From Nereocystis luetkeana (Eukaryota; Sar; Phaeophyceae; Laminariales; Laminariaceae): 64,000 nucleotides of DNA. Positions within the stretch are counted from its first letter, which is position 1, and every line of letters begins with the position of its first letter. Below, in pieces: positions 1 through 61,900 of the stretch. The stretch lies in NCBI GenBank assembly GCA_031213475.1, contig JARUPZ010000004.1:4411169-4475168 (forward strand), given 5' to 3'. The translations under genes were made by a program, and so were the position numbers. The notes beneath the pieces are model-generated. The model was given only the letters and a program-made list of their open reading frames with translations. It searched no databases and was not told where the DNA came from.

Positions 1-150
1 GGGCGGCTGGGGGGGGGGGGGGAAAGAGATCGATGTTACCCCGGATATGAGTTACGACTACACGCAGGAGGAGCAAAAGAGAAAATAAGGGCGAAAATAA
101 TACCTGGTAGGTGGGAAGAAGAAAATGAAGGGGAAAAGATGACGTACGAA
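1..150 (+). mobile_element. Family S3 fragment at window start
   Basis: Begins in a poly-G run, then ACCCCGGATATGAGTTACGA and the purine-rich tail. It contains TACCTGGTA at 101-109, where sister copies have a plain TA. Confidence 0.65.
101..109. repeat. TACCWGGTA micro-insert in a family S3 copy
   Basis: Sister copies read GATAATAGATGGGAAG at this point; here the TA is TACCTGGTA. The full list of 24 sites is given in the findings. Confidence 0.75.
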
Positions 151-214
151 AAACTGTTTCATTAAAGCTATATATATCAGGTATGGGTGTGGTGTGATGA
201 TGACCTCTCTCTCG

Positions 215-340: not shown

Positions 341-1260
341 AAAAAAAGCGCGGGAGCCCAAGTAAGCAACATTCGACTGAAATCGACAAGCAGTGAGTGG
401 GAAAGCTCAATCCTTCACGCGCGATCCAAATGAGGGCACGTATCGGGGGGGAAGAAGGGATGGCACATCTGTGACCAGTGGCCACGGCTTGTCGATAATA
501 TTGCTGAGGGTAAAACCTCCTGCGAGTTTAGCTGGAAAGTGCAAATAAATGATGAAATAAACAAAATACGGTAGTACCTGGTACAGGATTTTGGGCCTTT
601 GGGATCACTTACTATTATATTTTAGTCAGCGCTGACAGAGTGGTCTGTATAGTAGCCATAGAATCAACTTAGGACACATACCTTTATGACCAAATAGAAA
701 AAGGAGCAAAAATAGAAAGACACGAGGTTGACATTTTTTCGTTTACTATTAATACCAGTATGTGTCAATTTAGCAGCGGTAAATTTTGATGTTTGCTATA
801 ACGTCGATTTGGCAGCGGTTGAACTTGTGATTTTGGTGTACAGCACGTACCGCACATAAAATGCGCCCATTTTCTGAAAAAAAGTAAGAAAGAAATCCGA
901 CCTCGACTACATACTACGTACTGTAGTTTTCCTGTTTCTTCGCCGTTTGTTTGTAGGACTGCAGACTACCTCCAGCGTTACCGCATGGCACTGCTGCTGC
1001 TGCCGCAGATATTTACTCTCGAGCCGCTCGACCCACTAGCGAAGCAAAACCAAGGTAGGTGAACGGAGAGAGCGGTGGTCCAGAGGCATTATTACACGAG
1101 GACACCATCTATCTCCTTGCTGTGCTACAGTTACTAGTAGTAGTACGCATACCTCGTGGCTATGAGCACGTACACCAGGCATTATTGGTCAATGGACTAC
1201 AACGTCTGCGTCACGTACGTTCATATCGGGTGCAAGCCACTCGATGTTCGGGGGGGAAGC

Positions 1261-3783: not shown

Positions 3784-3893
3784 TATTACGGGGGACCATA
3801 CTAAATAGGAGTTATGGTACACACAAAAACCTACCAGGTATAAAGCTACCCATGTTTGTTACGAGCAATATTTGGTCCTATTCACTATCGTCA
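3784..3893. mobile_element. MITE family A copy 4 with CCAGG insert
   Basis: Left end intact; right end eroded (CACTATCGTCATAGG). At 3832-3840 the TA after AAAAACC has become TACCAGGTA, a 7-bp gain relative to sister copies. Confidence 0.8.
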
Positions 3894-4117: not shown

Positions 4118-4121
4118 GACT

Positions 4122-4229
4122 ACTACGGGGGACCATAGTTAACAGGACCAAATCTTGTTAGTAAAAATGGGTAAATATAGAGGTTTTTATGTATACCATA
4201 GGTCCTATTAACTATGGTCCCCCGTAATA
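4122..4229. mobile_element. MITE family A copy 5
   Basis: Both inverted ends nearly intact. It sits directly at the end of a SINE-like fragment (GAGTTACGAC), so the MITE is inserted in or beside that repeat. Confidence 0.85.
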
Positions 4230-4948: not shown

Positions 4949-5939
4949 GTACTCGATAGGAGAGATGTACTCGATCTCATGCATGGCCGTAGTCGTATGA
5001 CCATAGACCCTCGCATCCCTACAATGCCGAGACGGAGCGTCGTGGGGGGGGGGGGGGGGGGGGGGACAACGAATATGTCGTCCTTGGGACCCTCGCCCCC
5101 CCGGTGTCGACCAAATCAGCTTGAAGATTCGTCCGAGCAGGGGGAAGGGGGCGGGCGTCTAACTTTTTTTGCGTGTTTTGTACGGGGTATATATATGGCA
5201 CTTTTCCTTATTATCCGCTTCTTTTTTGTTTCCCTCCTTCGGAGTGCTTGTTATGAGTGACCAAGAGTGAAGCTCATGCTACACATTGTCGGATGACAGT
5301 AAGAATAGCAGTATTGCACACCCAGAGAGAGTAGTATCTACCAGAAATACAAGCGTACATCCCCCTTCTTTATCTGGTTCCGCACCCTATTCGCTCGTGA
5401 TTGCTCGAGTGAGTGTCATATGTTCCCCAGTGGCATGCTCAATGTTTTGTGATCTTGAGAAATAAAACCATTGTGATCGCGTCAACAGGAGGAATGATTA
5501 TCCGCACGCCGACGATCGAGTGTTTCCTTCCTTGTCCACCACGTGCCCACGTACAAACAAACTCGTGCAAGGAAGCAGTACAATCTCAAATGACAACAAC
5601 TAACTGTGAATAACTGCAACTGCAACTACTACCTTAAAAGCAATTGTGTCATAACAGATGTGCATGAACCTCCCGCTCGAAACAAACCGTCAAGACGGGT
5701 ATACCGGTACTACTGTTGATACTATACACCACCGGTATAAATACGTATATGCTCAGTTTCGATTACACTTGTTTAGTCCCGTTGGTTTTGCTTTGGAAGG
5801 GTTAATGGCGAGTGATCGACGTGCCTAGCCGGATGACCAAACGCATACTAGCAAAACAAAAGCGCTGTAGAACGTATAGCACACATACCCTTTACTGCTT
5901 GTAGATACCTGGTACTTCGAAGTATGTTCTCATCTTCCG

Positions 5940-7360: not shown

Positions 7361-8057
7361 AAATATTGTTTCTTACTGGAAGCCCCCGTATACTTACTGT
7401 ATCCTACATCTCTTGCTCTGGGCGAGGCTCTCACAATGTGACGATGGTGTGTATCACGTACTCGGAGAGGAACAATGCAGGCATAACAATGCCCACCTCG
7501 CTATCTGCATCCGACTATATTCTGCCAAGATGGGGGGTGGGGGGGGGAGGGTTACCCCGATTTTCACATGTTCACACTACTAGGGCGTACCGCGTTTAGG
7601 CCACTGGGGTCAGTGGCCCTGAAAACCTTACCATATCTTGAGACTTGATTGTTTTTTTTTCCCTCGCTGGCGCAGAGAAGGGTAACGAACAATTCTGCCA
7701 TGGCGGTTGGTCGGCGCATACGGCGGAACTAAAATCTATAGAGTCGGACGGTGGCAGACAATCACTCGGCCCAGTCAGTGGCGACGGGTGGCTGAAGAAA
7801 AACGACTACTGAAGGAGTGACCCCCCACCGTAACCGCCATAACCCCGTCCGGACAAAGACTCGTCATGCTGCGGTGGCGGGACGGGGGGTATGAAGTACA
7901 TACCTGGTACGTACGTAGGTAGCACCCAGGACGTGCGTGCTACAATGGCAACAATAGACGTTTCTTTCAGGAAAGTCATTAGTGATCAATGTTGAAGATC
8001 ATGCTGCACATTGTCGGATGGCAAGGGAAATAATAAGTGAAGAACTTCAGTAAAATC

Positions 8058-9763: not shown

Positions 9764-11884
9764 GTATTTCGTTGTACACGGTAGGGGTGCACCAGAAGTT
9801 CCTGAGTCCCTCGCATTAGGAGCTCAATGTCTCACCCGATTCAATATTTTGGAAGAACTTTGTTCGCGTCCCCCGACCGGCACTTACTTGTCTGCGCTAG
9901 TCCTAAAACGAAATTACGAGTACAACTTTCATCCTAACGAACTGCTGATCCCTCACTTAGGGAACTCAATCGGCCAGAAACCTTTTGCCCAAAAGGTGCA
10001 ACCCCTACCGTGGGGTGACTCTGGACCAGTACTGCGTTGTACACGGTAGGTGTGCTGACGCAAAAAAAACTACATTGGAGGTGCGCCATTTGATTTCTGA
10101 GGCTCCTCGCTTGTGGAGCTCTATACTATTAGTAAGTCAATAAAAAAAGTAGACCAAAAATTGATTTCAAGAAAAAACGACAGTGCAACTCGGCGTAGAC
10201 GAAAATAAGCCGCACCTTGCGCGAAAAAACAAGGATGGCATTATTCCGACGATTTTGACTCAAGGGTCCCCGTCATTCGAGACAAATATATACCTGGTAT
10301 AAATATATATATGTGCTGCCCCTCTGTCGTACGTATCACGCGTCTGTTGGAGTATATGCATCGTGCGGGACTTCCAGCTCTGAATTCAAGAAAAAAAGCA
10401 CGGATCCGCGCCGGGGAAACCCGATTGTCGCGTGAGGTATCACGCCCCACAGCAGTCGGACGAATTTCCAAAGCTGATGATGTTGGTCGCGACAACGCTC
10501 ACTGGGAGGGTGTGCAGACACCGATCGATGTGTCTTACTGTCTGTCTGTGCAGATATCCTTGACGAGATTGAAATATCTCGACGACACTTTTCCTGAATC
10601 CCGTCTATCTCGTTTTCGTTGTGCGCGCCCCGCCCCGCCCCTTGGTTTGGAAACAAGTGGGCTCTCGGAATAAACATCTCGGTTGGGGTGTATTATCCTG
10701 CGCGTCAAACGTACGGTGTTACTGTCGATACTACCGTGCTGGATGCCATTGGCATGTGGATAGCATAGTTGGCATGGAAGAAGACACGCGGAGGTATAGT
10801 CGTACAAGCAATCACCCGGTAAGTAGTCCCGTCACGGGAACGACCAAAGCGTCGCCTCCGACCAAAGAATGCCATCCTACCGGCAGAAAGCCGTGGTGTC
10901 TTGCTTTTCTGAGAACCCTGGCACGAGGGGCCCAACACCTTGCCACCGGAACGCAACGGCGTCCAGAAACCATTGTGCTCTCTCTTGCTCGCGACCCGAC
11001 CAACATTCACAGGCGCTGGTCCCGAAACAAAGTACCACAGGTGTACTAGTTGAAGCGCCATATTTTTTTCTAGCAGTTGCCCCCTTAAGAAGGAGCTCGA
11101 ACGGCCAGAACAATATTGCCTCGAAAGGCAGCAACATGCAACCCCCCCCCCCTTCCTGGGGATAAAATCAGAAGTATATGTACTCACCGAATGCCTCACG
11201 AACACGAACGACCCCAAGTGATCGCGTCTCACCTGTCTGTCTCTGGAGCGCAGTGTGAACAGGGCCCCCGTCGTGCAGTTACTTGCCGCAAAAACGTACG
11301 CTGATCACTAGCTCTGCTCGCCGTGTGGTAGGGCTCCAAGCACTGCTGTAAGGAGTAGTAGTAGTCGTATGCAGCAGTACGGAAGGAGAAGATCCGACGA
11401 TGAGAGGAAGCAGCGAGCGGGCGTTTTTTTAATCTATATAGCAAGCAAGTGCTGATGTGCCGGAAGCACGGGCAGTGAAAGGTGAGGGGGGTGGGTGGGG
11501 TGGGATGAGACGCCTATTATTGTTGCTGATGATTATGCGTCTGCCGCGCTATACCGCGGGGAAAGTGGTGGCGTCCGAATGGATGGCGGCTCGGTGGCAC
11601 ATATAGTAATGATGTTCCGATTTCACGCGGAGGGGGTGTGAGCTTTTGGCGAAGTTTCCGCAAAGCGAGCGTCGGTCAGTCCCCCGGGAAAACATTATGC
11701 CCTCGCTATTTTTTTTGCCTGGAGAGTGCCTCGGGCTATGTACCCGTCTTACTCGAATGAGTGTGTTTTGTATGGGTGGGCTGCCCGCGAATTGTCCGTT
11801 ATTCTACAGAGCTGAGACGGAGAGACAACTACTGCGCTACTAATACTACCGAAAGTGAGGCAACGTATGATTTCAATACGCAAC

Positions 11885-13554: not shown

Positions 13555-13555
<1 letters not shown>

Positions 13556-16575: not shown

Positions 16576-16657
16576 AATTCCCACATAACGACATAGGTTT
16601 TGAGTGCCCTACTCTGTGGTTTAGAGTGCCTCGCGATATACATACCAGGTACTATTT

Positions 16658-37060: not shown

Positions 37061-37108
37061 TGTCAAATGCATTACCAGGTATCCACTATTAATACCAGGT
37101 ATGCACTC

Positions 37109-37222
37109 TGACGGGGGACCATAGTAAACAGGACCAAATATTGTCGGTAAAAATATGTAAATATCTACCTGGTAGGTGTTTGTCTGTAACACGGGTCCTA
37201 CTTAATATGGTCCCCCGTAATA
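37109..37222. mobile_element. MITE family A copy 12 with CCTGG insert
   Basis: Ends good. The TA next to GGTTTTT (the same internal TA as in copies 4 and 16, read on the other strand) is TACCTGGTA at 37166-37174. Another TACCAGGTA overlaps its right boundary TA at 37221-37229. Confidence 0.85.
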
Positions 37223-38319: not shown

Positions 38320-41300
38320 TCACCATCGATGGATGCCTTCAGAGCTTCCCCCTGCCTGCCCTAACAAGTGCTATTATTGTGACTCGCGAGTCTTGGCCCC
38401 GCTGGTTGTTCCTGCGTGGGGTTGAAGGCGGGAAGTGGGGAGAGGGACGGTGTCAGGTGAGTCCGCCCGAGAGTAACGGCACTGGCCACCTACCTGTGCA
38501 CTCTCTCTCTCTCGACGACAGGCAACCTAGGAACCCGGCGACCTCTGCGGCCGCTGTGGGCAGACCTCCCTAACGAACCTACACCTGAAAATATTTTGAA
38601 ATGTCATTTATTTATGAACTATTCAGTGTTGGGTATCATAGAACGATGCCATATTTCTCTTCCTTGCGGGCATACGTCGATCGCTCGCAAGCTCGTGAGC
38701 GACGCGGCGCATGATGGCGCTGCCCCAACATACCCACCTCTTGTTGGACTTCAGATGGCAGACGTGAAAGGGACTTCAGATGGGGAACACAAAGCAGCTG
38801 GAATTCAAAAAAGAAAGCCCGCGCAGAAAAGCCCCCAGAAACGAGTGGAAATCCGCCGGGGAGGAGATTTGGAGATTTGGGGAGGCCGGGAGGCGCGAAC
38901 TCTGCAAATTTGATCAGGACCACAAACAAATTCTGCGCCCCGCACCTGCTGTCCCTGATTGCAATTGTAACTCTATGCACCCCAGTCACCCAGTCCTTGA
39001 TTGCAGTTGTAACTCTGTGCACTCCACTCACCGTCACCCACGAACGAGGCGAAGCGAAGCGTGTGAGATCAACAGCAGTGGTACACAAAGACGAACAGTT
39101 TTTCGGTCTGGCGGGGACTGGGTCCTAGGTCCTGGGTCTGTTGGTCTGCAGTCTGCCGCAGGACGACAGCAACAACAGCAGCAGCTGGAGCAGGGGCGGC
39201 GAGGGCTACCATCTCCTCCAGACATGAACGTGAACGGTGGTGTCTACCAACCAGTGTCGGCCCCTTTCCGACACGATGGCGACGCTCAAACCGACAACAA
39301 GAGCGCCGGCACTACTGCAACACCCATCGTCCCTTCGACGTTGGGTGAACGCATCGAATTGCTGGACGGGGAGACAAGGTGGGTACGTTTGTCCTGCTGT
39401 AAGTAGACCTGAAAGATGAATTCCAAACGCATGCCACATGTATGTGCAGAGACACGGAAATACCTAGTTGGGCCCAACATAAGGTCCTGGTGGCATTGCC
39501 CCCCATGAAGGAGAGGTTGGAAGGCCCCGAGCAACTTGGTTCTTAACGTAAGGCTGAGAAAGTACTGCTGTATGACAAGAATCATGAATATTATGCTCAC
39601 CCCCCAGCAATTTCCGAAACCAGATCATGCTGGAAACGGTTCGATTTTCTGGAGGACGAAGAGATTATGCTGAACGACCAGCTGGCGAGGCTGGAGAAAG
39701 TCCGCCGCGGCGAACGTATGGAGGTGCCGTATGGAGGCATGGAGACCGGCGCGCCGTTATAGCCCGCATTATGATTTGAATTATTCGAAACACGGCCACA
39801 GCAGAGCTTATCAGACAACGTTCTATTAATAGCCCATATCGAGGCATGAGGTTAATCGTACCAGGTAGAACATACTACAGCAGTGCTGGGTATACCCACT
39901 CAGGATACGTGTGTATCTGGTTTACGTAAAGAAAGCCGTAAAAAACGGAATGCGACACACACAGCATACTTACAAACTTTGCATGTGCTGGGTGCTATCA
40001 AAGGGATCATGGTACTTTTCACCCAAAAGATGTATGATCGATGGGCCTTCTCAACGAAGAAACTACTACTACTGCGGTTGTACACAACACTATCGTTTCT
40101 TTTCGCGATATGCTACAATATAAGTCTTAGGGTCATTCTTATTGGAGAGCTTTTTTTCCAAATTTTTGACATTTTTTGCGCGCAATTTTTCAATCTTCCA
40201 TATTTATTTTTTTCCTGATTTTTTGGGGGGATTTGCTCCTCTCTTCGTAGAACAAACTGCAGTCTCGTTTTGGGGAAAAAACACTCAAGTTCGAAATGAA
40301 TCGTCGGCGGTGGGTGGGAGTTGCTCCTCATTTTAGAACCGCAGTCCCATTCTGGGCACAAACCTCTCGAATTCTTAGTACGTTGTCCCCAAAACGGGAC
40401 TCCAGGTACTAAAAAGGGTTTTTACGTGTCCACATTTATTTATTTCTATCGGGTTTGGGCTGATACACAGCACAGAGCCCCTCAAGCAAGGAGCCTTCAG
40501 GGAAAATTGCACGCGCATGAGTCTCATGTGGATTAGACGAAGCCGTAGATAGACTATACAACGGCCTCACACATGCCACACGGGTCACGAGCCCCCTCAA
40601 AGGCGGCACAGGACGTGAAACACCTACGTACTGGTATTATACAGAATAGGCCCACGGAAAAGAAACAGCCTAATAGAACAAGAACATGAGTTTCATTTTG
40701 GGGGGGGGGGTGCCAAGAAAATTATGTGAAGAAATCGTGCTCAGCGACGAGCGCTGTATTAAATCCTACGCGATACAGAACAGTATATATGCTCAAGTTT
40801 GTTCAAGGATGATGTCACAATAAAGTTCTAAGGCTTGCTCCCATATCATTTAGGTGTTTCTGGTTGGCGGGCTCGCGCTGTAATAAAGCAATTATATCGT
40901 AGAACGCAAGTTGCCCCCTATCAATCACTCGAACAGATACTAAGGCTGGAGCAGGCTTGCAAGGCGACAGAAGTGGCCACGCTCAAGGCACAGGAAGACG
41001 CCGCCGACTACGATGCAGATTCGCAAGCCCTCGAATGCCTCGCTCGGGATGCGATCGAAGACGCCGCTGAGGCCGCCGCTGCTGCTTCAAGAGCTCAACA
41101 AGGGCCTTCGTCGGATGGCGATGATGGCGATGCTGCCTCTTCGAGGTGCCTGCTGTAGGTTTTTGCTTTGATGTGACTATAGTCATGTTTCGACGCGTCT
41201 GGGGCTGTCGACGTCGCAACCATTGAGGCAGCTTGGTAGCTTGGTATCCTCGTAGTTTGGGGTCGAAACAATATAAAGCCGCACTGACACGGCATTTAGG

Positions 41301-44300
41301 GGTGGTGCCTTATTTTCTGAGCTCCTCGCATTATGAGTTCAATATATCTCACCCGAAAAAAATGGAGTCGAAAAAACAATGTTAGAGCAACCCGACCAAT
41401 ATGTTCTTATGCGCTATTACGGGGGGGCACAGTAAATAGGACCAAATATTGTAAGTAAAAATAGGTGAGTACGTAGGTTTTTGTGTGCGCCGTAAGTCCT
41501 ATTTACTATGGCCCCCCGTAATAGTAGTAGTGCTCAAGCAACAATACGGGGTATACTGAACTAAAAGCATCGTTGTCAAGTTGTCTATTCATAGTCCGTT
41601 GGGCTACTACTGGCACAATGTGGACCAATTACCCACCCCCAACCTAAGAGAAACATTATGGCACTCTTCCCCCCTTGGGAACAGCGGGCTCCTTGGCCTT
41701 CGTATGGGGCCCCGGAGATGCCTATTCCGCACTTCTTGACAAATTATGGAGCCCCGGGAAAAATGTTGTATCATGTTCTTGACATGGGGAAATTCAATGT
41801 TCCTCACAAGCGTTTTTCGTGGACGTGAGATTTCGCTCACGACCAACAATTCATGTCCTGCAGATCGACGCCATGTGTTTAGGTCAACCTATCGCCCACC
41901 CAACGTAAGCCTTATAGCGTCGTACTAGCCGGTATACCAATAGTTGTTCGCTTGAGGACTTCAATCGGGGGTAGACAAAATTAAGCCAAAACGTGCAACC
42001 CCTACCCACGGGCGGGATATGTAACTTAAACACAAAACAAAATGCAGCCTTGATGGAGAAAGGTATAATGCCCGGGTTTTGATCCGCCTACAGGTATGGA
42101 AGTCATGTGAAAAACATGTCAATATACGTTATTAATAGGATACAACAGTATCAAGAAAAACATATACCAGGTATTGGGTTGGTTGGCCCGCACAACGGCG
42201 TTATGTTTCCAATGAAAAATGTGAAACGCACCCTGTTCTGACCCTTTTCGTGCCGTATAGGCACGTCAGAGGCTCCGCTGCCCTCGTCGCCGCTTTGAGC
42301 AAAGTTCCCGCTCATGAGGAGAAGCGCAGACAGCTGACCTCGCTTTTGCGCAACATCGAAAATCAAACGCGGAGTGACATCGCCGAAACTGCTCGGTCTG
42401 CTGCAGAGCTCAGGTGAAAATATGTCAAGAGTCAGGTTGAAGACAACGACCTAACATTCTATTGAATGTATCTGATAACCGAGCGAGGGATATCCATAAC
42501 AACTAGAGCATGAGTTGCCGATTCACAAGTATGTCCCTGAATATCCCTGATACACTGTAGGGCGCGAGGTACCGGCAGGACGCGGACAGTAAAAAAGCAC
42601 GGCATGCAACCTTCATGGGGTTACTGACGAGTGCACGATGGTACATCGCACGACCATACATAAGCACCCATGCTATCGATACACAAGTAGCAGGTATACC
42701 CCTGCATACACCTGATCGAGGTTACGAGGTACCGGCATGACTCGTACAAAGAAAAGTCTCCCCACGAAAGACAGTCATGCGAGCACGGACTAGCTACCGG
42801 CATGGTGCTCAATAATAATTGCGCAGAACCCGTTTCCAGGTACATTACTAGCAGACAGTGTCTTTCAAAACTGAAGTTCTTACCCTCAAGTGGGCGCAAT
42901 TCCCTGGTGGGGTTTTTTGTACTACGGTACAGTAGTGACCAAAACATACAGATAACAGACAAATCGGAAAAATGGGAACGAGCCCTAAAATGAGAACCAA
43001 GCCGTATCTCCAGAACCATGTGGTGTATCAGAGAACCAAAATGATCCTGCGAAACCCCTTGGCCAGCCCTGTGAGAGGAGCTCGTCAGAACGGTCATGCT
43101 CCATCTCGTGCCTTCGGGTGGGCGCAAAAAGCGATATACGCTGGCTGTATTGTGATTTCTCTAGATGCTGGCTACCGCGGCGATGCCGAGGACTTCCAGC
43201 CTGAGCGACAGCTCATTCGAAGGCTGCTGTACAGCCCCACAGGACTGTCAACTTTTTTTCTTGGAGTTGTACACAATTGGTTTGCTTTCTAAAAAAAACG
43301 TCCGTTCCCATTCAAATCGGAAAAATGGGAACGAAGCCTAAAATGAGAACCAAGCCGTATCTCCAGAACCATGTGGTGTATCAGAGAACCAAAATGATCC
43401 TGCGAAACCCCTTGGCCAGCCCTGTGAGAGGAGCTCGTCAGAACGGTCATGCTCCATCTCGTGCCTTCGGGTGGGCGCAAAAAGCGATATACGCTGGCTG
43501 TATTGTGATTTCTCTAGATGCTGGCTACCGCGGCGATGCCGAGGACTTCCAGCCTGAGCGACAGCTCATTCGAAGGCTGCTGTACAGCCCCACAGGACTG
43601 TCAACTTTTTTTCTTGGAGTTGTACACAATTGGTTTGCTTTCTAAAAAAAACCGTCCGTTCCCATTTTTTGTTTCGTTCCCATTTTTCCGTTTTGTCTGT
43701 TAGATGCCTGTGTTCAAACATGGTGATACTGCAGTACAGTAGTACTTGTAGTATCGATCTATTCGGGGGCGGGCTGTAGATATGCAGGTCGTCTCTGGTA
43801 GCGCTTGGGTCGCTCGCACATGGTTTGTACTGTACTTGGTGGTATTCGCCTGCCTCAGAAAGCGAGGAAGGGATGTTTAAAAGCGGTGACACGGGACGGA
43901 GACTTGGACGGGTGTGGCGGACACGTTTCCCTTTCTATCAACACATCTGCGCACTGTGGTTCACAGCTAGGCTTAGGCTCACTGTGTGACACTGAGCCCG
44001 CTAACATCACGTACAGAGACCCTTGCTACGGTATCGCCTCAAGGATCCACAGAGAAAGGTTATCGAGATGACATCATGCTGCACTGGCCCTGTAGTGTCG
44101 CCCGAACCGCGAGAAATACAAGAACTTCCGATGATAACTGCACACAAAGTTCATCAAACGCACATGATGATACATCGGGGGTCCACTTGGTGGCCGAATC
44201 TGAGTGGGAATCTCAACGCACGTACATACTCTGTTCTCCCGCAGACTAGCAGCGAAAAAAAGAGATGCTAAGAGTGTGCCTTTGGAGCGTGAGACAGGTG

Positions 44301-45340: not shown

Positions 45341-46227
45341 CCGACCTCTAGCAATGGGAGGAAAGGTACAAAGTGCAAGGACCCCTGGCACAGGCCTCGC
45401 GGCAAGAGGAGAGAATGGGCGAGAGGGAATCGGCAGATGTGTTTCAAGAGGCAAGCGTTGCACTGTCATGACATGTGGCACTTTGCTGGTAGAGCTGGTC
45501 GGCTTTCCTCTCGGAAGCCCCGCCTACGATAGCCGGGGGGTCGCGCAGTTTTAGTATTTCGACAATAGTGAATACCAGGTAGCTATTACGACCATGTTGA
45601 AAACAAGTGAACACATCGCAAAGCAGCAAAACCCCTGCGGACCAAATGGGGACAGTATCCTCAAGCGCAAGACCATCCGGACGTGCACATGCGTGAAGAC
45701 ATTGCCATCTGGGGCAATTCATCCCGTTACACTGGATTGAAAAACAGCGCAAGTAGGAGACACTTTCCCAGAGAAAAATGAGCACTCGACCCGGTTGGGG
45801 CACATTGGGAGTGCCGTAGCCATTGATTATTGCCGCGGTTCGCTACAAGCCATGGTCACCGGCCTTGAAAATTCCTTGAGATTCAGGACTCTGCTACTGT
45901 TTTTGCTGCCGATGGCATGCCACCCTCTACATAAAGTGTCAGCCATGTACGATGCCAACAAAAGCTGGCGGCCGTTCCTAGAGTCATGATTTCCTCTTAG
46001 CATTTACCCAATGTACAGGGACGAAATTATTCCGGTGTCCAAGTACGCCGCTCGCGCCGAGCAGCGCGCGCATCGGCTACACAGCAGTCGAGGGTCAACG
46101 GTGTCACAATTTGATGTCACGGCATTCAGTAGAGAATCAGCAATCATCAGTTCTGATCCGTGCCGAATTATGACTGTCGAAACTGCGCTGTTGTAGCTAG
46201 CAAGTCCTTCGTAAATAGCCGGCAAGT
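45341..46227. other. Gap between convergent genes
   Basis: 887 bp between the stop of the coiled-coil gene (plus) and the stop of the TMEM70-like gene (minus); presumably both 3' untranslated regions. One TACCAGGTA at 45573. Confidence 0.6.
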
Positions 46228-49200
46228 CTATTTCTCGTGGTCCTTGAGATCTCTTCCCAAGAGAGTCTTCAGCAGCACCTTGTCCTCCATGTCGTGGCCC
46301 TGGATGTAGTAGTGCTTACCATTAGCCTTAAATGACACGAACGGTCTCGATGTCTTGGGCATGGGCTCCACCTGCGAGCCATGGGAAGAAAAAACGCCAA
46401 CGAGCATGTGCGCAGGGTCGTCATTTGGCTGTAATCGTAATCTCCACTTCGGCATGGTCTAAGCTCCGAATGCGACCCGTGAAGGTATCTATGTATCCCC
46501 ACTGGCTTCGTACATAGTGCGCTGCATTTGTTGAGAGCGAGGAGGCACACGTTGCATGATTCTGAGTTCAAACCTCACATAGCCGTAGTGGCCACAAAAA
46601 AAAACAGTACCGTACCTTACTTCGTACACCGATGCGTAGTCTTCCGCGATTCGAGGTGAGGCGTGCTACGACAGAGGGAGCACTGAAGCACTTTAAGGCC
46701 TGAACGTTCCTTGCTGGCGGGGCTCTCACCTTGTGTCGCACTGCTTACAAAAAAGCACTGATATTGCCAAAACTCCCGATAACAGAGACACTGGAACCAC
46801 GTCTGCCCACGATATTTTTCCTGGGGATATTTCGTTTTTCTGCACTATCTCCGAACGTTCCAACCGAGCCATACTCCGGCAGGGCAGATATGAGCTCCTT
46901 GGTGCACTCCCGTTAATGTATCAAAGCGAAAACACTTTCCGGGTTCTCCTCCGGGGCGGACTACGTCGCTCAACTTTGAAAATCTGAATCCAGGCGCTTA
47001 AATGCTCATTTTTTCGCACTGTAGCCAAGTTTTTCTTTTCTGCTGTAGAACGAGAAGGGGGAACGCAGAAGCTGCACGAGTGCGTACTCACAGTATTACA
47101 TACCATAGACCTGGTAAACACTTAGGCCATGGCATTGTTCATCGCGCTGCACTTTCGTGTTTCTCAAGGTCAGGGGATGCCTGGGGAATAAGAGACTCTT
47201 AAGTGAAGAGCCTTGGGAAATTGTAAGTGCGTCCCCTATCGTAGCATGAGTCGTCCCGTATCAACACCGCTCCGCCCGGAGCCACGAGCCACCTGTACAA
47301 CCCGTGCGGCAATTCCCTCACCTCGTCTATCGAAAACTCTGTCGTGCTTCGGACACCGAAGATGTTCATCCTCTCCACCCGAAACCGCCGGCCTGCGTTC
47401 TTGAGCATGCCGTAGCGGTTCTTTTTGTTTCGCCTTTTTTGCTGTCCCTCGCCGTCAGGGCCCTCCTCGCGGTCCAGTATCTGCAAGCAAGCGGAGCCGA
47501 GATGCTGTACGAGTGAGTTCAGCGGTTTGAACGCTCATATCGTACAGAGTTGTTCCCAAAAATGCAACCGCGCACACGGAAAAGTTAACTGCCCTCCGAA
47601 AATTCGAGATCGAACCTCGCCACAGCACACGATATCATACAACGAAAAACGAACCGTGCGGCGGATGCACGAAAGGATGCATTCGAGCCTCACGCTGCGC
47701 TACTCCGAAATGCTTCCAGAATAGACACGACGCGAAACTCCAGGCACGTACCAGGTGCATTACTGTGGTAGTGTTCACCTACCTCTGCCATGCGGAAAAC
47801 GTAGGGGCTGACGCATAGATTCAAGAGGAGCGTCGAGCAACCAGTTCCAGCGAGGGCTGTTCCCATCACAGCCACTTGACCCGCCATGGGAACGCCTTCC
47901 TTGCCGTACACGTACAACGCCGGCACCCCGAGTATGCTGATGAGGCACGTGGTTATCGAGACCCTGTGTGGGCGAACGCCAAGAAAGACGTGGATTTGGT
48001 TCAGTAGAGTTGAGGAGGGGGGATTATTTACGGGGTTAAGCGCACGTGTTGCTGGAAGAAGAGAGGGCGCAACCGCATTCTAGGAGTAGCGCAAACGCAT
48101 ACCTGGTACGAGTACCACTTCGACGTGAGCAGCAGCGTGTACGAGCCTCCACAGATTTGGCGGACCACGCCTCAAATGCTGACTGTGGTCGACGAACACC
48201 ACTGCTGTGTATCAAAGGCAGTGCAGTGCCTGGCACGGTATTTATAAGGTTGTGCGTACCGCAGTGCAGCAGATGCACTGGACCTATCACAGACTAGAGC
48301 CATGATATTTTTGTGTAGCGTGTATCACGTAGACTAACTGCTGTAACGTATAATGATGTACATGAAATATCATATACAGCGGTATACATTGAGTACAGTA
48401 ATACGCGACATGTTGAGAATTTCAGGCTACGAAACATTATTTTCAGAGTATACAGCTATGATTAAGCACTTGAGCTCAGCGAGAGGCGCCACTGCAAATA
48501 CTACATAATGGCCTTGAAGAGCCTATGCTCAACGTCGACATCACAATAAGCCGCGAGCATTAGCCAAAATAGGAGAATAGTAACTGCTGTCGCGTACTGC
48601 TGTAGTGAGTACAGCACTGCTGTGTACCCAAAAAACAATGTTCGTACGACAACAAGCAGCAAGCGACGACACATAAAAGCTCATATTTTGGGCCTGGCTC
48701 CTCCTCTAATGACACATGTGTAAGGCAGGGTGTGACCCACTCTAAAAAATCACCACTAAGACCTATGCCAATGGAAACGCAAAGTTCAAAAGTTTTTTTT
48801 CAAATATATCGCTTTTAAAAAAACAGCCGAAAATTTTCTCGTACCGCCGCTGTGGGACAAAAAGAGAAAAATGTTTGATTTTTTCTTTTTTCCCCCCCAA
48901 CGGCTGCAGGCGGCGCAATTTGTGTTTTTCTGGTCGCATATTGTCAACACGGTGATCGAAACCAGCTCGTGCGACGATCGACGCTCGATCTCGACATAGA
49001 CTCAGCCCACGGCCAACCCACTCGGTACCTGGCAAGCCCAACGAATATAGATGACGGCCTCGAAGATATCAGGTGGATCCATGGTCTAGGGGGCGAGAGC
49101 TTGCCGGCGGCGTCCTACGGTATCCTCCCAAACCTGAAAAAAAGTCTATTTTTTGCCATTCGAGACGGATGGAGAAGTTTTGTCTTCTGTTTTGTGCAAA

Positions 49201-50543: not shown

Positions 50544-50764
50544 GGGCGATGCCTAGAAGCGTCGGGGAACATGTAGACGCAAGAGAAGAGCACAGAGGGG
50601 GTACAATACCTGGTAGGTTTTACTGTGGATAGCCGCACATTGCTCGTTGTTGCTCTGATGAACATACCAAAAATCATGCTATGATATTGATGATCTTCTG
50701 CCTCTCCGACGAAGGTCATGTTGAAGAAAAATGGCATCGCGTTAGGGTAGGAGCTACCCACGAG

Positions 50765-51789: not shown

Positions 51790-52582
51790 CAGCAGTGGTG
51801 TCAATATCACTGTTCGTTGTACGAGTATTAATATTAATGGTGAGTCTGCATCCACCCTGTGGAGTGCACGAATCGTTCGCACTTCTGTCGGGCATGCTTG
51901 AGTTTCGAGCTGACAGCAGCAGCGCTTATCGATATGCACACGTACGATCCGAACTCTGCATACTGTGCTATGATGCTCCCTCCTACTCTGTGCAGCAGGT
52001 ATTTATAGTCTCTCTCCCGTCTTCCGTCTTCCGTGTGTACGCTCGCATTGTGTACCATGTACAACAGCAGCGGTTCCTCTGAAACGTGCATATCAGAGGT
52101 ACCAGGAGAGTAAATACCATGTGTCCCAGCATACCATATACGTATACAGCAGCGGTTCCAGGTACCAGTATACGATATGAGACTTGATGTTCTTGCTTGT
52201 GATATCGTGGTGCCATAGCTTCTACCAGGTATACGCTGCTGTGCCGCACTTTGCTCCAGAGACGAGCGTGGGGGAGGTTTTCTGTAGCAACCTACTGTAG
52301 TTCTCCGCCGGTCGAGCCGCACATTTCGGGCGTTTGCGCTATTTCCTTTTGTTTTCCGTCGGTCTAGCCAATTTTCGCCAACAATGCTCGCCCGAATCGA
52401 AATCGATCGACTAAAACGCCTCCTCAGCCGCATCGCATGGCTGGCGCTTGGATCTCGGTATCAAACGTATGCATTGTGTACCGACCGGCCGCGGATCAAA
52501 ATCGATCTACTCGAGTAAACAAAAATCCTTACGAGTATACGTATCGCTCGCGCTTGCTCGTCGGTATCTCGTGTTTATAAAA

Positions 52583-52901: not shown

Positions 52902-55900
52902 GTGATATAATTTTCCTGGAAACTTCTTCCGGCCAACGAGCGACCGTCTGGAGGAAGGCACGGGCGAAAGGGGAGGGGATACTCAGGAAGGGGGAAGGGG
53001 GGGTTAAGAACATGTTGAGATCGGGTGTCTATGTTGGAGATCAAATGTCTGTTCAGTTGGTGGTGGGTCGAGATCGGGTACGTGTCTTTTCGATATGAGG
53101 CTAGGTTTAACGATGTTGGGTGATAGACCAGGAGAAGGGGTGGGGGGCGCGGGTCGTCTGTCCACCCTTTGCGGCCCTCGCTATGTTTTATGCTCGCGCC
53201 TCTTCGAGGTCAAGCCGCCTCGCTTCCCGGGCATATACGGCATGCCTCGACACCACTACCCCCTCACCGCGGGTACGGCATGCCCCAACACCACCCCCCC
53301 CCTCTGCCGGAATGATCGATGCTGCCATCTATACGCAAGGCAGTCCGCTGCACAAGCGATTCTTAGGAGGATGCCGCTCACCCTTGATTCTACTTCCCGA
53401 ACGCCTCACGGCGCTCGCTTGCTTCGCGCTTGGTGCAAGCAATGTCGGCCTGGTCGGTGAAAGAACCCGACGCGCTCCGTCCCGGCGTTATAGGGATGCG
53501 AGGGGCTTATGATCATACCTCTACGGCTATGCATGACATGCGTACATCCCCCCCCTCCGCCATCTGGACCCCCCCCCTCCGCCATCTGGACCCCCCCCCT
53601 CCGCCATCTGGACCCCCCCCCCTCCGCCATCTGGACCCCCCCCCCGTTCCGTTCCCGCCTCCCCTCCCCCCCCCCCTCCTGTATGTCGATTAGGCACAAA
53701 CACCTTCGCTTGGTCGCCATCCCGCCGAGCCCAGGGGTTTTTTCGCCGGCGTTAAAAGTCCGTCCGAACACGGGGACGAAACCGCCGGTGGCGGCTTAGC
53801 GGCGGCGAACGGCCTCAACAGCGGAGCCATGCCGCCTCAAAACGCAGGCTCTTCGGGCAGTCTGGCCGATGACGCCGCGGCTCAGCTGCTGTCGGCGTCG
53901 TCTGTGGTGGGCGAGGGGGCGGTAGGACTCGGTGACGGTGGGGACGGAGAGGGTGGTGGTGGGGGTGATGAGAGGGAACTTGTAGGGGGGGGGGTGGCCG
54001 TGACTGAGCCGGAGCCGGCGCTGATTAACGTTGCAAAGGGAAGTAAGGGGGCAGCGGCAGCGGCGACGACGCCGACCTTGTGGAACGTGCCGAATATGCT
54101 CACCATGGCCAGGGTTGCGGCCATTCCGGTGAGTTTGGGGCGGGGGGGGGGGGGGGGGGGGGGGGGGCTATCGCGGGCAGGAGGGGCGGGGGGAAGCATG
54201 CGGGATGTGGAATCACTATTTATCACTTTTTCTGCAAGGAGGAGTCGGTCAAGCGGGGATGCTGTTGTGGTGTGAAGAGGTACTAACCGGGGATAACTGT
54301 TGCCCATAGCTTGTAACTTGGCGGTAACACATGCCAGCGGTAGGTAGCATGAATCTTTCAGTTAAACATTGTACCCCGTATCCCCTGGTAAACAACGCTT
54401 ACTACATTTGTATTGGAAACCCCTAAGTTTTCGAAATTCCCAGCACAAGCACCACCCACAGCACACTGACTACTGACGTTAAAGGGGGCACGGGGCAACG
54501 TCACCACCGGGGACGGTTATTATCCGTCCCCCCCTAGGGAATTTTTAAGAGCGCCCCGTATTGTAGTTAACTTGCGATAGGTCACATGGTTTTCTGATTT
54601 TCGCGTTGCCGGTAGTGTGGAACAAGGCATTCCTTGATTGAAGGGTTGCTCATATCGGACAGATTGTCGATTCTCACTTGATGATCTAGGACTTCCAGGA
54701 CATATATATGCCTCATGCGTACGGTATGATCTACTGTAGCTCATGTCACCACGTGGGAGGCGTATAATCTGTACGGTATAGGTGTAGGACTGGTTGCCTG
54801 GGCCAGGTCTGTACTATACAGACCCTGCACAACATGTCATACCGGCAGGTTGGTTATTTATACACCAGGTATATGTACAGCAGATCGTTATATATACCAG
54901 GTACTACTTATCTGATCTGTGTGATCTATCCGATATATCTAATCTATTTGATCTATCTGGAGTATCTGACCTATCTGATCTATCCGGTGTGTGAAGGATT
55001 AAGACCCCGCCATCGTTTGCCAATGTCAAGGTTGTTCACTTTGTTTTCAGTTGGTCCTGGCGTTTGTCTCTGTAACGTGTTTTGTGATATCATCTCGGAT
55101 GCTCGAGAGGGTGCCTACGTTGTTGTAGAGGTATTATGGCGGAACGTTCAGTCCCGTCACAGAAAAGGTTATCGCCGCTTGGTATCAATTGACCCTTGGC
55201 CCGTGCGACGATGCGACACGGGCAAGGTGTGATAATCGGTTTGAGCTCTCTCACAAAAACGGGGGCGCGGGTGGCCTAGATTGGCGCACGAGGGTGTCGA
55301 TTCCTCCCCCCCTCCACTCCTCGTTCTGTACCAACGCGTCACGCTTAGAGTACAGCCCGAAAGTGTCCAACGGTGCTATAACAAGCAATCCCTCCCTCCC
55401 GCCCGCCTTCCCTTCCTCGCTCCCTTCCACCCCCCTTCCTTTCCATCCTCGCTCCTTCCTTTCCTCCGCCCCCGCTCTCCCTCCCTCCTTCCCCCCCCCC
55501 CCCCCCCCCCGCTCTCACACACACCTCCCTCCCTCTTTCCCTCCCTCCCTCTTACGCCCCCCCCTTCCTTCCCTCACATCCCTCACACGCGTCTCGTTGT
55601 CCTCCCGGCGTTTGTCTGCCGTTTGCGCTTCAACCACGAACAAACAAACGGCGTCGTCGTTTTTTCACCCCCCAACATAAAAGATTTTCGTTGCGCTATT
55701 TTACGCGCCCCTGCCCCGGCGCAACGTGTGGTGCGCTTCTATCTTTGCGGGTGCCGCGTTCACGGACTGGCTTGACGGCTACATCGCGCGAAGGCAGGGC
55801 ATCGTGACGCCCTTCGGCTCCTTCCTCGACCCCGTCGCCGACAAGGTTTGATTCGAATTGAAACCCCAGTTGACGCATGCCTACGCAGCCACCTTGAAAC

Positions 55901-58900
55901 CCCAAAGCAGGGCATCGTAACGCCCTTCGGCTCCTTCCTCGGCCCCGCTGCTGACATGGTTTGATACGAATTGAATCGCTTGAAACCCCTGTTGAAGAAG
56001 GCCTACGTAAACCACCTGGAAAACCAAGACGGGGCGTCGTGACGCCCTCCAACTCCTTCCTCTACCCCGATGCTTGACAAGGAATGAAAAACGCCTCAAA
56101 GCCTGTTGTGACCCCTGCGGGACCCCCGAGGTATAGCGACCTAAACAATGGTTGATAAAATTTTGGTGCTACCAATCGTCTACGTGCACGGCATGCGCCT
56201 AGCAGCACAGGTGTATCGTGTTGCGGTGCGAACACCAACCATTGTATCATCCCCCAACCATTCTACCGTCTCCGTTGCTAAAATCACAGTCACTTTTCTT
56301 TACCGCCAATTCTTCCCTCTGAACTCCCCAAGACAGTAAAGGAAGGCCTACAGAACGTACATATCCATAGCGACGCTGTCACACTCGGGAAGAGACAAGG
56401 GGGGTGGGGGGGGGGGGTACTCATTTGTTGCTTGCCTTGGTCATTTGACCATTTTGACCACGCAAGGTGGGGCGTACTCATGTTTCGCGTGACCGTAGTC
56501 GTATAACGGTAGACCCTCGCGTCCTCACAATGTCGAGACGGAGCACGTCGGGTGTTCACCGACCACACAGACGATTATTGCTTGCACCCAAGCGCGAAGC
56601 GCCGTGAGGTGTTATGCGACTCGCATGTTGGGGTGGTGGGCTGCATCCTGCTAAGAACCGCTTGTGAGGCGGACTTTCATTGCGTATGGATGACCGCGTC
56701 GGATGAATGGATTTGCTTCTCGGTGTGGCCACCCCCGGAGAGACAGCACTGCTTACTCTGTGGAACTGCCTCGTGGATGCCATACCGTACACCCACTACG
56801 TGATACGACCATTCCCCTTTTGCGGAATCCAGGTGCTCCACCCCACGCAGATGATCCAACTCGCCCGCCACCCATGGTGACCGCCAAAAAAAAACAAATG
56901 GTGTCCTTGTTGTCTAGTTCGCGCAGTGATTGGCGTTTTTGCCGACCGACGCCAACCCCAGGCTACAGTGTTATTTATCACTCTGTCCCTAAATGTAAAA
57001 AACGTTTCGACTGAATATTAGTATACAACATGTCCTTATATTTTGGGATAGAGTGCTACCTGGTAGTATATACTCCCTGAACTATGTAGCTTCAGGCGTT
57101 GCCCTCATCATACACGGGATGTGTACCCTGCATGAGGCCATCTAAAACCCGTACCCATGACACTATCACCCTAGGGTGATAAGATAGCATACCCCCTCGG
57201 GCGATCTTCCAAAGCTGATGGGTTTGTCGACCACGGGGAGGGCGTACTGAGTACGGCGAGCGACGATATGCGTCTATTACGGGGGACCATAGTTAATAGG
57301 ACCTATGGTATACATAAAAACCTATATATTTAACTATTTTTACTAACAACATTTGGTCCTATTAACTATGGTCCCCCGTAATAGATGCAACCTTCTCGAC
57401 GAAATACTTCTCATGGCCACCGTTTTCGTTGCGTGTGCCCCTTAACCCCTTTAGAACCCCAGTCCCGTTTTGGGGACAAACTACTCGAAATTTGAGTGAA
57501 TTGTCCCCAAAACGGGACTGCGGTTCTAAAAGGGTTAAGGCATGTTTTTGAGGGGGTGTGTTATCTTATCACCCTAGGATGAAAGTGTGATTCTGTAGTA
57601 TTACGGGGGACCATTGTTAATAGGACCTATGGTATACATAAAAACCTACCTGGTATATATTTAACCATTTTTACTAACAATATTTGGTCCTATTAACTAT
57701 GGTCCCTCGTAATAGGCGCAATCGATTGTATCACACACAGCTTGCAAAGATGCCTTTTTTGGACGAAACCCTCGATCTCACAGCTGTTGTTGTTTTTTTT
57801 TCATTTTTGCAAATAATGGGTATCACTGAGCATATCTGGCGGGGGTAGGGGCGGGGGTCTTTTACACCCAGCAGTAAGTCCTGTTGCCTCGTCGTCTTGT
57901 ATGTTTTACAGAACGTTGATAACATGCTATTCACGTGTTTTTTGTTCGTATTTCGTATACGACCGCGTGATGAACATGGAACTTTCCGTTCGCGTGACGC
58001 ATCGTGTCTGGTCGTTCTTTGTTTTGCCCCCGGTGAGCAGCTGCTAGTGTCGACGGCTTTGATACTTCTCTCGGAGCGGCTGGGGCCCTGGATGACCATC
58101 TGCTCTGTCATCATCCTGTGTCGAGAGCTGGGGGTGAGCTGCAGCAACACAACAGCAGCAGCTGGACGTGCATGCCCTTAATGACTTATGGTGCTCGTGT
58201 TGGGTCTTCGTGCTTGCATGTACCGATTTTCTTTCGCTGGTCGTTACGCCTCCTTCAACTGGTATTTATGTCTTTCATTGTTTTGGGCTGTGTAGACTTG
58301 ATGATTGCAACGGTTGGTGGGTCTTTCGTTGTTTTTTTTCCAGCTGCACCAGAACATCGTCGGATTTTCGCCCTTTTGCGTCACCCCACGTCCGAACGTC
58401 TCCCTCCGAAGGGAAACCTTGTACCTGGATACAGTGTTTACGTTGCGATGGCGTCGTACGCAGTGTCGCGTGTGGCGTATGCCGATATGCTATTACGGGG
58501 GACCATAGTAAATAGGACCTATGGTACACACGAAAACCTGCGTGTTTACCTCTTTTTACTGACAAAGTTTGGTCCTATTTACTATGGTCCCCCGTGACAG
58601 CATTTTTGCCGGGGGTCATCATGTAATGCATGTGCCCGATACAGTGCCGCGAACTCGCTTGGCACGGATGGGATGAGCCAGTGCCGGTGTCGGCTATATT
58701 GCCGGCATACTGGCCTGGCGCCTACCGGCACTAGAGAGGGACCACTACGTACTGTTCTGCAATTTGTGCACGATACCAATTCCGAGTAGCTTCGTCCCTT
58801 GCAGAAACAACACGTGGGAGGGGTTATCAATTCTGAGAGGGAAAATGGTGACTAGTCAGGGCCAAAAATGCTCAGTAAAAATGCTGGAACCATTATGTTT

Positions 58901-61900
58901 TAGTGTGGATGGTGGGTCCTGATTACTGTGATCCCCTTAAATATGATGAGAAAGTTGAGGGATTTCAATGAGAGTGGGAACGCTTTTGTGCGGTAAAATG
59001 GTTGTGAAAGGTTGTTGCGCGGGTAGTCGTGCCGAGCTTTACTGTAGTATGTGTTCGTCTTTTGTGTGTGTGGGGGGGAGGGGGGGGGGGGGGGTAATCG
59101 ACCTCATGCATGGCCGTAGTCGTATGACCATAGACCCTCGCATCCCTACAATGCCGGAGGGGGGGGGGGTGTCTCGATAGGAGAGATGTACTCGATCAAA
59201 ATGCATGGCCGTAGTCGTATGACCATAGACCCTCGCATCCCTACAATGCCGGGACGGACGGAGCATGTCGGGTTTTCACCGACCAGCCGGGGGGGGGGGG
59301 GGGGGGGGGAGAGTATTGTGTGTACTGCTGTTTGAGCGTGTGGGGGTGTGTGTCTACTCTTGTGGGTCAGTGCTTGATGTGTGTTCGTGCTGTGCGTGTT
59401 CGTGTGTATTTTTCGTCCCTTGCACTGAGTGTTTAGTGCGTGTTGGTACTATATATGTGCGTGCGCGTGTGTTAGAGAGGGGGAGGGGCAGAACGCTACT
59501 CCTAGCAAATATTCTATTTTCCCGTCCGTCTGTCGCTTGGGCTATATCCCTCCGCCTGCCCTTCGCCGTCCGTCTATTGGCTGACCTCCCTCCCCTGTGG
59601 TCTGGCCTCTTCAGATCAGCGCCCTCCGTGAGTGGATGGCGCAGTTGGGTCTAAGAGAGACGGTCAAGGTCGGGAACGCCGGAAAGTGGAAAACCGCCAC
59701 CCAGGCAAGCAAGTTGTATAGTTGGCGTTACGGCCTGTGTCGGGCTGTGGGTATGCCCCGAATGTTCCCACGAGATTGGAGGCTGTGATTACGTATCTGC
59801 TACCAGGTATATATATATATATATATATATATGTCTTGGTTCGGTTCCCGCAGCTGCCAGGTACTACTAGCCGCCACGCTCGCGGGGCAACGCATTCTCT
59901 TCTGTCTCGCGCGTGTCTCCACCGCCGTCTGTGTGACGCCACTACTGCAGTTGGCCCGGACTAAAAAAAAAAAACCTGGAAAAAACAAGTAGCAACAGCC
60001 TACTGTTCATACATATTCGCTATTTCCCTATTACATGTTTACTACTCCGAGACACGACGGTAGTACTAATATTAAACGCGACCGGATGCATGACAAAAAA
60101 AAGAACGTCTAAACCACGTTCAACGCCCACCCCCCCCCCCCCCCCCCATTGTTTCTTGAACTTCGCCTCGAGAACGCCAACCCGCATCTGAACACCCCTA
60201 GTTAACACCGCGCCCCCCGTTTTTGAGTTTTACTTCCCCTCCCGAAAGCAAACGCCAAACCGCATGGAACACCCCCCCCCATAAATAGCTTCGCCCTCTT
60301 TTTTACTTCCCTCCCGAGCGGGAAACGCCAACCTGCATCGAACACCCCCATCAACGTCGCGCCCTCTCTCTGTTGAGTTTCGCTTCCGGTCTAGCAAGCA
60401 AAATGCCAGGCCGCATGGAACACCTCGATATAAACACCTCGCCCTCTCTTTCTTGAACTTCGCTCTTCCCTTCCGAGAAGAAAACGCCAACCCATATGGA
60501 ACACCCCCAGCGACACCGCGCCCCTTCCTTCTTGATGGGTAGCTGTTTTTCTTCTGAGATGAAAAACGCCAACTCGCATCAGAACACGCCCCATTCAACG
60601 TCGCGCCTTCTCTTCCTCGTGTTTCGCTTTCCTTCTTCCGAGATGGAAAACGCCAACCCGCGTCAAAAACGCCCCCCCCCATTCCACGTCGCGCCCTCTC
60701 CTTTTTGTGTGTGTGTTTTTTTTTCCGTTTTCTCGTGGCTGGTGCATGCTGCGAATAAGGGTGCATGCGCCTTCATTTTTCCTCCTATTACGGGGGACCA
60801 TAGTAAATAGGACCCAATATTGTTAGTAAAAATAGCGAAATGTATAGGTTTTAGTGTCTACCGCAAGTCCTATTTAATATGGCCCCCCGTAGTAGAGGAC
60901 CTCCTCCTTGATCGACGTGTTACCCTTTTAGTGCTGCAGTCCCGTTTTGGGGAACAAACCAGTCAAATTCTGAGTAGTTTGTCCCCAAAACAAGACTGCG
61001 GTCCTAAAAGGGGTAGAAGGGTTGAGTGAATGTGTACGCTCAACCCGACGAGCAGCCTACACGGCCTACGAGGTCTGCACCCGCAAAATGTCGCAAAACT
61101 ATACGGTATGGGGTACCAGTTAGTTACATATAGTTCCTCAGACGCGTGCTACGATGCGGACGACACGTTCTGAGCCGAGATATGTTCCTCTTGACGAGAA
61201 TTCCCAACTGAGGAACCCAATCCTAACATCGCTGAAATACCGTTTTTTTTCTGTGTTGTGATGCTGAGGCGTTATGTTTTTTTCCATCGGGTTGCGATTC
61301 CGTTTCCTTCTCCTGAGGAAATGTTTTACTGTAGGCTAGCCGAAGAGCTTCTCGAGCCAGGAGCCTCAGTAAATACCCCTATAGTAATCGTAGCATGTAT
61401 CCTCGATTGAGAACTCGATCCAAGTCAGAGACATTGCCCCTTATGGCAAAAAAAAATAGGTGTCGAGCCTCAGAAAATATACTCCTACCGCATCGTAGCA
61501 TATACCCTCATTTGAGAGGCCTGATCAAGTCAGAAACACTGCCTCATAAAGGCAAAAAAAGTGTGAGAAGCCTCAGAAAATATACGCCTACAAGTATGGT
61601 AGCATACATCCTCGATTGAGAAGCGCGATCGAGTCAGAAATATTGCCTCATAAGGCAAAACGAAATGTGGGAGAGCCTCAGAAAAGAAACCCCTACCGTA
61701 GCATCTATCCTCAAGTAAGAAGCCCCGTCAGACAGAAGAACTGCCTCATCAGGCAAGAAAAGGGTGAAGAGTCTCAGAATGTAAACCCCTATATACCGGG
61801 AGCATGTATCCTCCCCTGACAGGCCCCAGCAAGTTCGAAACCTTGCCTCATAAACAAGGCAAGAAAAGGGTGAAAAGCCTCAGAAAATAAATCCCGTATA

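Follow-up and report, generated by a model that had tools for sequence, protein, structure and literature searches.

A genome-wide TACCWGGTA palindrome in Nereocystis luetkeana as a probable excision footprint of a TA-inserting DNA transposon

Background

The Sleeping Beauty transposon leaves footprints of the form TAC(A/T)GTA. The internal eliminated sequences (IESs) of ciliates are bounded by TA at very many sites, and their excision leaves a single TA. In the portions of the papers cited here, Tc1/mariner transposases are described as nicking 2-3 nt inside the element, and the donor site keeps 3′ overhangs (PMC7827188, PMC2170065). Sleeping Beauty donor sites are repaired by non-homologous end joining, and the footprints equal the 3-nt overhangs of the element ends (PMC7827188). 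Reported footprints measure 2-4 bp for Tc1/mariner (PMC7913693) and 0-4 for a pogo element (PMC9976928). For Stowaway miniature inverted-repeat transposable elements (MITEs) in rice, natural TA-flanked footprints are described, as are insertions that hit one TA more than once (PMC1925063); rice DNA transposon excisions are mostly messy, with 8 of 94 perfect and the rest showing deletions or filler (PMC4423477). PIF/Harbinger elements make a 3-bp duplication and generally excise precisely (PMC4561436). Here we describe a 9-base palindrome, TACCWGGTA, in the brown alga Nereocystis luetkeana, starting from a stretch of 64,000 nucleotides, hereafter the window (assembly GCA_031213475.1, contig JARUPZ010000004.1; C4:4,411,169-4,475,168). 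Each copy of the palindrome probably marks, as a fossil footprint, the past excision of a cut-and-paste DNA transposon that had inserted at TA and duplicated it.

Abundance of TACCWGGTA

The window contained 24 exact copies of TACCWGGTA, the centre base being T in 12 of them and A in the other 12. All 24 start positions given in a sequence-only reading of the window were recovered, as was its estimate of about 50-fold over-representation with about 0.5 copies expected: 100 shuffles of the window gave a mean of 0.49 copies and a maximum of 2. The corresponding word with C or G in the centre (TACCSGGTA) was present once. The palindrome was also enriched elsewhere in the genome, as that reading would require. 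We counted 182,395 copies in 465,085,209 bases (1,987 contigs), or 1 per 2.55 kb, against 1,744 copies of a reversed control pattern, an excess of about 105-fold. In 264 kb, made up of the window and 20 stretches of 10 kb from C1-C5, the centre base was A in 49 copies, T in 52, and C or G in 6. The enrichment of TACCWGGTA is genome-wide and W-centred. In IMG/VR, double arrays turned up in 9 stretches; one of the 9 loci held a third site, the other 8 had the double array alone, and there was no enrichment.

The main sample (282,054 bases, 112 exact sites) consisted of the window and the sampled loci L001-L004 and L007-L028. L005 and L006 were excluded for their overlap with L004; L007 and L008 have a stretch of ~1.2 kb in common, with no site inside, which is counted twice. 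When overlapping copies were merged with 100-bp flanks, 104 loci were obtained (98 single, 5 double, and 1 triple), whereas a 40-bp flank rule gave 105 loci. A simple tandem-repeat origin was dropped because 98 of the 104 loci were single.

Comparison with sister copies

Loci were compared with paralogs that reach at least 20 bp past the junction in both directions, and the two best alignments per locus were judged by eye. Such a paralog was found in the sample for 22 of the 105 loci. At 11 of these 22, at least one of the two alignments showed a 7-nt gap at a single target dinucleotide (window 101, 3832, 37166, and 57647; L003:1501; L016:602; L020:1020 and 1830; L023:8100; L027:2993; L028:2809). 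The sister dinucleotide was mostly TA and sometimes TG or TC. At 101, 3832, L020:1020, and L020:1830, the second alignment shifted, split, or lacked the gap. Four further loci came within 1-2 nt of a 7-nt gap: L016:4216, L016:4298, L026:3590 (8-nt gaps), and L026:6873, a double copy with a gap of 12 plus 2. Where the scar is flanked by two TAs, the sisters have a single dinucleotide, which is the arrangement of a TA target duplication. These findings support the proposal that the word behaves as a TA-flanked 5-bp insertion whose empty sites read TA; the other 7 of the 22 loci did not resolve in this way.

Several alignment rows are paralogs of the same MITEs, and loci rather than rows were therefore counted. 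Six of the 11 loci, together with L026:3590, occupy one and the same TA in a single MITE family, and the other five lie elsewhere. The resident MITE is roughly 110 bp long, has ends TTACGGGGGACC, and carries a TA duplication. The sequence-only reading had named four repeat copies whose sisters show a plain TA. For three of them, the MITEs at 3784, 37109, and 57599, this was borne out: all three carry the scar at one shared internal TA, and the 7 bp are missing from sister copies. The fourth, the copy at 101, was borne out in one sister (window 7267, 75% identity), but its other paralog, in L024 (71%), showed no gap.

The putative footprints in the window are given below; all are exact matches, and no strand is assigned to them. 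The hot TA is the internal TA of the MITE mentioned above, and TATTAATA is a second word that is treated with the MITE.

101..109, TACCTGGTA; empty sister in the window 7267 region
575..583, TACCTGGTA
3832..3840, TACCAGGTA, at the hot TA of the MITE copy starting at 3784; paralog alignment
5906..5914, TACCTGGTA
7901..7909, TACCTGGTA
10291..10299, TACCTGGTA
16643..16651, TACCAGGTA
36659..36667, TACCTGGTA
37073..37081, TACCAGGTA
37093..37101, TACCAGGTA, sharing its left TA with TATTAATA at 37087
37166..37174, TACCTGGTA, at the hot TA of the MITE copy 37109-37223; paralog alignment
37221..37229, TACCAGGTA, at the outer edge of the MITE 37109-37223; paralog alignment not cleanly resolving
37777..37785, TACCTGGTA
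37826..37834, TACCAGGTA
39859..39867, TACCAGGTA
42165..42173, TACCAGGTA
45573..45581, TACCAGGTA
48100..48108, TACCTGGTA
50607..50615, TACCTGGTA
52223..52231, TACCAGGTA
54895..54903, TACCAGGTA
57057..57065, TACCTGGTA
57647..57655, TACCTGGTA, at the hot TA of the MITE starting at 57599; empty sisters 95-96% identical
59801..59809, TACCAGGTA

Empty MITE copies in the window:
57275..57384, plus strand, empty sister of the TTACGGGGGACC MITE with TA duplication and plain TA at the hot position; paralog alignment
4121-4229, 11885-11993, 23397-23505, and 51681-51789, further empty TTACGGGGGACC MITE copies

Target preference

The flanks of the 105 loci were symmetric, with A or T at -7 (p=6e-7), A at -6 (0.54; p=2e-11), and avoidance of T at -1. 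The -7/-6 preference was absent in those columns of 90 TACWGTA and 161 TACNNGTA controls. The pattern TACCNNGTA contains the scars themselves and was hence no control in this test. A coarse filter took out 16 MITE-like contexts, and a weight matrix was trained on the remaining 89 sites, in which A at -6 still reached 0.51. In leave-one-out analysis, 48% of sites fell within the top 10% of TAs. The target preference is moderate. Beyond it, the flanks of most sites in the sample shared no extended sequence, as would be expected from the earlier proposal. A search for short inserts between favoured flanks brought out CCAGG/CCTGG, with CCAGGG and CCGG found three times each, and is partly circular, since these very sites had served to train the matrix.

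The hot TA of the MITE was at the 99.89th percentile of sample TAs by the matrix and was the first of 17 MITE TAs scored. The scar, as a 7-bp insert, was present there in 7 of the 47 MITE left halves of the 282-kb sample, and the MITE hits noted in the sequence-only reading are a subset of these. Its observation that the same TA is hit in three MITEs with differing centre bases was confirmed; because the hot TA ranks so high, common descent is not needed to explain repeated hits. The three MITEs are simply explained if a favoured TA was hit independently each time and the centre base fell at random; some scars may have been inherited. The random centre would come from mismatch repair.

The 9-mer might instead have hitch-hiked, multiplying within repeats (MITE subfamilies, tandem arrays) rather than by independent insertions. 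The shared position of the scar in the seven MITE left halves favours such an origin, as does the footprint common to the tandem copies L016:423 and 602. However, the filled copy at 57647 shares 95-96% identity with empty copies and 92% with a filled copy in L028, and the centre base differs among filled MITEs. Moreover, 89 of the 105 sites were not MITE-like by the coarse filter, and only 22 of the 105 loci have a spanning paralog in the sample. We therefore consider hitch-hiking quite improbable.

Resident MITE and its putative scar

The word TATTAATA was 8-fold enriched (94 on both strands; 11.8 expected), and the 264 kb held 47 copies. The word is flanked by C, T, A, C at -4 to -1, which matches the left flanks of 54 TATTACGGGG MITE ends (CTAC before the TA). 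Among 51 TATTAATA loci, one (L017:2076) had single-TA sisters, in L027 and L021; a simple single-TA replacement was seen neither in the L007 and L024 sisters of this locus nor in the sister of window 19101, and no useful paralog was found for the remaining TATTAATA loci. Judged from these letters, TATTAATA may be composed of the TTA/TAA ends of the MITE, the TTA overhangs having been joined through a 2-nt overlap. Because TATTAATA is enriched and its flanks match those of the resident MITE, footprints evidently accumulate, and the genome appears to retain excision scars in large numbers.

The MITE with TATTAATA serves as an internal control for TACCWGGTA, which it resembles in its TA target and its enriched scar; the TATTAATA flanks match the insertion preference of the MITE, and one locus has TA-bearing sisters. 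In contrast to TACCWGGTA, the element itself is abundant (47 left halves per 282 kb), the TAs of the scar enclose 4 bp, and the preference is for CTAC before the TA, whereas TACCWGGTA is A-rich at -7/-6. Words of the MITE were absent from viral contigs (0) and from GTDB genomes (0).

747..754, no strand, TATTAATA, putative excision footprint of the TTACGGGG MITE family; assigned by flank preference
19101, 19337, 20019, 35230, 37087, 37729, 39824, 42130, 51604, and 51826, starts of further TATTAATA copies

Decay and nested arrays

One-mismatch variants of TACCWGGTA numbered 117, compared with 44.7 expected. Transitions (64 vs 15.8 expected) were in greater excess than transversions (53 vs 28.9), and the outer TA (68 vs 21.4) in greater excess than the inner CC/GG (49 vs 23.3). 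Transitions alone gave 43 vs 8.1 expected in the outer TA and 21 vs 7.7 in CC/GG. The one-base variants follow a neutral-decay pattern. Set against 110 exact copies, the excess of about 72 would correspond to an average change of roughly 8% per site, and scars with at most one change number perhaps 300,000 genome-wide; both figures are rough.

A palindrome with symmetric flanks and very high copy number might also be a selected binding site or motif, for example of a regulator, chromatin, or origin protein. Yet the 7 bp are present or absent at one dinucleotide in 11 of 22 testable loci, the variants show transition-rich neutral decay, and some loci lie inside MITEs. A conserved or selected motif was accordingly dropped as an explanation and is very improbable. 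Decay bears likewise on programmed DNA elimination, in which the germline would keep TA-flanked elements and the sequenced tissue would have lost them with a stereotyped junction, as with ciliate IESs. Very many uniform TA junctions and a sample in which no full element was recognised fit this explanation, under which a random A/T centre would vary between cells. However, transition decay is strongest in the outer TA, which would be intolerable if that TA were needed in every generation, and a ciliate IES leaves only a single TA. Programmed elimination has little probability.

Six arrays hold 7 extra units, where the matrix predicts 3.3 nested hits; nesting is expected.

Search for the source element

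Full elements with TA duplications and CC...GG ends, suggested by the sequence-only reading as a further test, were looked for, and none was recognised in the 282 kb. The 35 TACC...GGTA inverted pairs within 8 kb were judged by eye to belong to the interior of MITEs, to a single large inverted repeat, or to low-complexity sequence, or to be isolated pairs. The search also covered the 60 most frequent TA-tipped 14-mer inverted pairs and 40 of 131 candidate repeat boundaries at TACC. By eye, no element was seen at the hot TA in seven MITE left halves, six of which had no close partner.

Stop-free segments of at least 100 aa numbered 469, and 96 stop-free segments (20 from the window, 76 from sampled loci) were scanned against Pfam. 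No Tc1/mariner family was found in these 96 segments, and there was one DDE_Tnp_4 match. At E up to 0.001, matches were only to retroelement families, DDE_Tnp_4, EF-hand, USP32_N, and TGL. The 20 window segments gave nothing apart from a sub-threshold chance match, and no tRNA or Rfam match was found in the window. By the rule of three, none in 282 kb suggests that element copies are likely fewer than about 5,000 genome-wide. Scars would then be far more numerous than elements, which repeated jumping of a small number of copies, or element loss, would explain.

The one TACC boundary that was followed (L011:3388 and three others) was rejected as an element end: it is the interior of a SINE-like (short interspersed nuclear element) repeat, with a one-base shift. 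This dispersed repeat, tRNA-derived by eye, was seen at L011:3388, L019:9935, L021:1303, L024:431, and L023:4872, and no Rfam match at gathering score was obtained in the four loci scanned (L011, L019, L021, and L024). A separate repeat at L011:1209-2845, with relatives in L012, L023, and L025, has TA-tipped inverted ends (TACAAGGCGCTTCG) of about 110-120 bp that are 84% alike. It is a candidate TA element and is not CC-ended.

Proposed excision model

Excision of a TA-targeting transposon is the best explanation of TACCWGGTA, and to this extent the sequence-only reading holds, although the corresponding CC...GG element was not found in the 282 kb. The element ends would read 5′-CC(A or T)GG at both sides, and the transposase would cut within the element, so that the flanking DNA keeps 3′ CCWGG overhangs. 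Both would have the same sequence, on opposite strands; four of the five bases could pair, with an A:A or T:T mismatch in the centre. Repair would pick either strand and yield TACCAGGTA or TACCTGGTA equally often, which would account for the palindromic, A/T-balanced centre. Self-annealing overhangs would give a stereotyped product, and a 5-nt self-annealing cut would thus explain both the W centre and the dominance of one product. The element would re-insert elsewhere, and few active copies could write very many scars; in the sampled sequence, intact copies are scarce or missing.

The same letters would result if 3-nt CCW overhangs were joined through an overlap of one mismatched base; we lean slightly towards the 5-nt form. 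Under the 3-nt model, TACCATGGTA and TACCGGTA (the latter 16 vs 3.1 expected) would be side products. We put forward more tentatively that a self-complementary 5-nt CCWGG cut, or a 7-bp-only insertion, wrote several hundred thousand near-uniform scars and left almost no element behind.

Several results weigh against excision, or against the evidence for it. No full element was recognised in the 282-kb sample. At the hot TA, an element beginning TACC was found in 0 of the 47 MITE left halves, compared with the footprint in 7. Among loci with a spanning paralog, 37221, L008:1501, L008:1582, L019:6541, L021:2315, L021:3070, and L025:6993 did not resolve to the 7-nt gap, and the sister of L025:6993 differs in another way. 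At the TATTAATA copy at window 19101, the sister lacks 9 nt and has no TA there. The loci of the flank test include MITE ones, which are not independent, and a third control, TAGGWCCTA (23 loci), showed strong flank columns; these may be due to copies lying largely in the MITE, as their sequence context suggests. Five of the six arrays are uniform in centre base, and some arrays may have grown by tandem slippage. The word TACCATGGTA occurred 4 times, compared with 0.34 expected, a count more in keeping with a 3-nt CCA overhang than with a 5-nt overhang.

Some of these results are shared by a self-contained micro-insertion, in which an aborted reaction of a TA-specific recombinase or transposase would join short CCWGG end pieces, the 7 bp being the product itself. 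The lack of a recognised full element in the sample, including the hot TA, the very uniform product, and the occurrence of footprints in nested arrays all suit it. Against it, the TTACGGGG MITE shows a pair of element and footprint, so the ordinary route seems to work in this genome. To our knowledge, there is also no precedent for inserting a 5-bp piece that has no binding sites. Micro-insertion is unlikely, though it ranks first among the alternatives to transposon excision.

Excision scars are usually studied singly or by strain comparison. With about 182,000 uniform scars, target preference, repair outcome, age spectrum, and tempo can be read from one assembly, even without the element. 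Short over-represented palindromes can be transposon scars rather than regulatory motifs, and a transposon may alter a genome far beyond what its copy number suggests.

Other repeats

A CATA microsatellite of roughly 1 kb occupies about 12520-13600 of the window. Recent tandem duplications lie at 16180-16953, 42960-43612, and 7994-8623, with spacings of 474, 353, and 330 bp and 99-100% identity over 300 nt; the regions 16180-16953 and 42960-43612 are mutual inverted copies (98-99%). A 97-nt hairpin-like repeat family (CAGTCCCGTTTTGGGG and its inverse) has five copies in the window (40324, 49780-49876, 49883, 57442-57538, and 60920). L027:3392-9650 is a long inverted repeat of several kb, with segments that resemble, by eye, the reverse transcriptase and endonuclease of a long interspersed nuclear element; the Pfam matches do not name the member.

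Comparison with known systems

Footprints of TA elements are already known. Judged by listings, neither a 5-bp CCWGG footprint nor a scar family of such size was found in the parts of the open-access literature covered by our searches. Ciliate IESs differ from TACCWGGTA in their precise single TA, compared with the neutrally decaying 7-bp residue seen here. The passages on PIF/Harbinger describe a different outcome as well, the present scar keeping TA plus 5 bp. The rice and Stowaway scars, as described in the cited portions, are like TACCWGGTA in being TA-flanked footprints in a host genome with hits at the same TA; unlike those, here one product dominates. A close likeness is to Sleeping Beauty and Tc1/mariner, which share with TACCWGGTA the duplicated TA, a palindrome with an A/T centre, and probably a footprint derived from end overhangs. 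The contrast lies in scale, with about 182,000 naturally occurring copies in a single genome and no element seen, and in size: the 5 bp between the TAs exceed the 2-4 bp given for Tc1/mariner in PMC7913693, which also counts against the assignment. With its size outside that range and element and transposase unseen, TACCWGGTA is a candidate member of the group only, and it works like a Tc1/mariner footprint.

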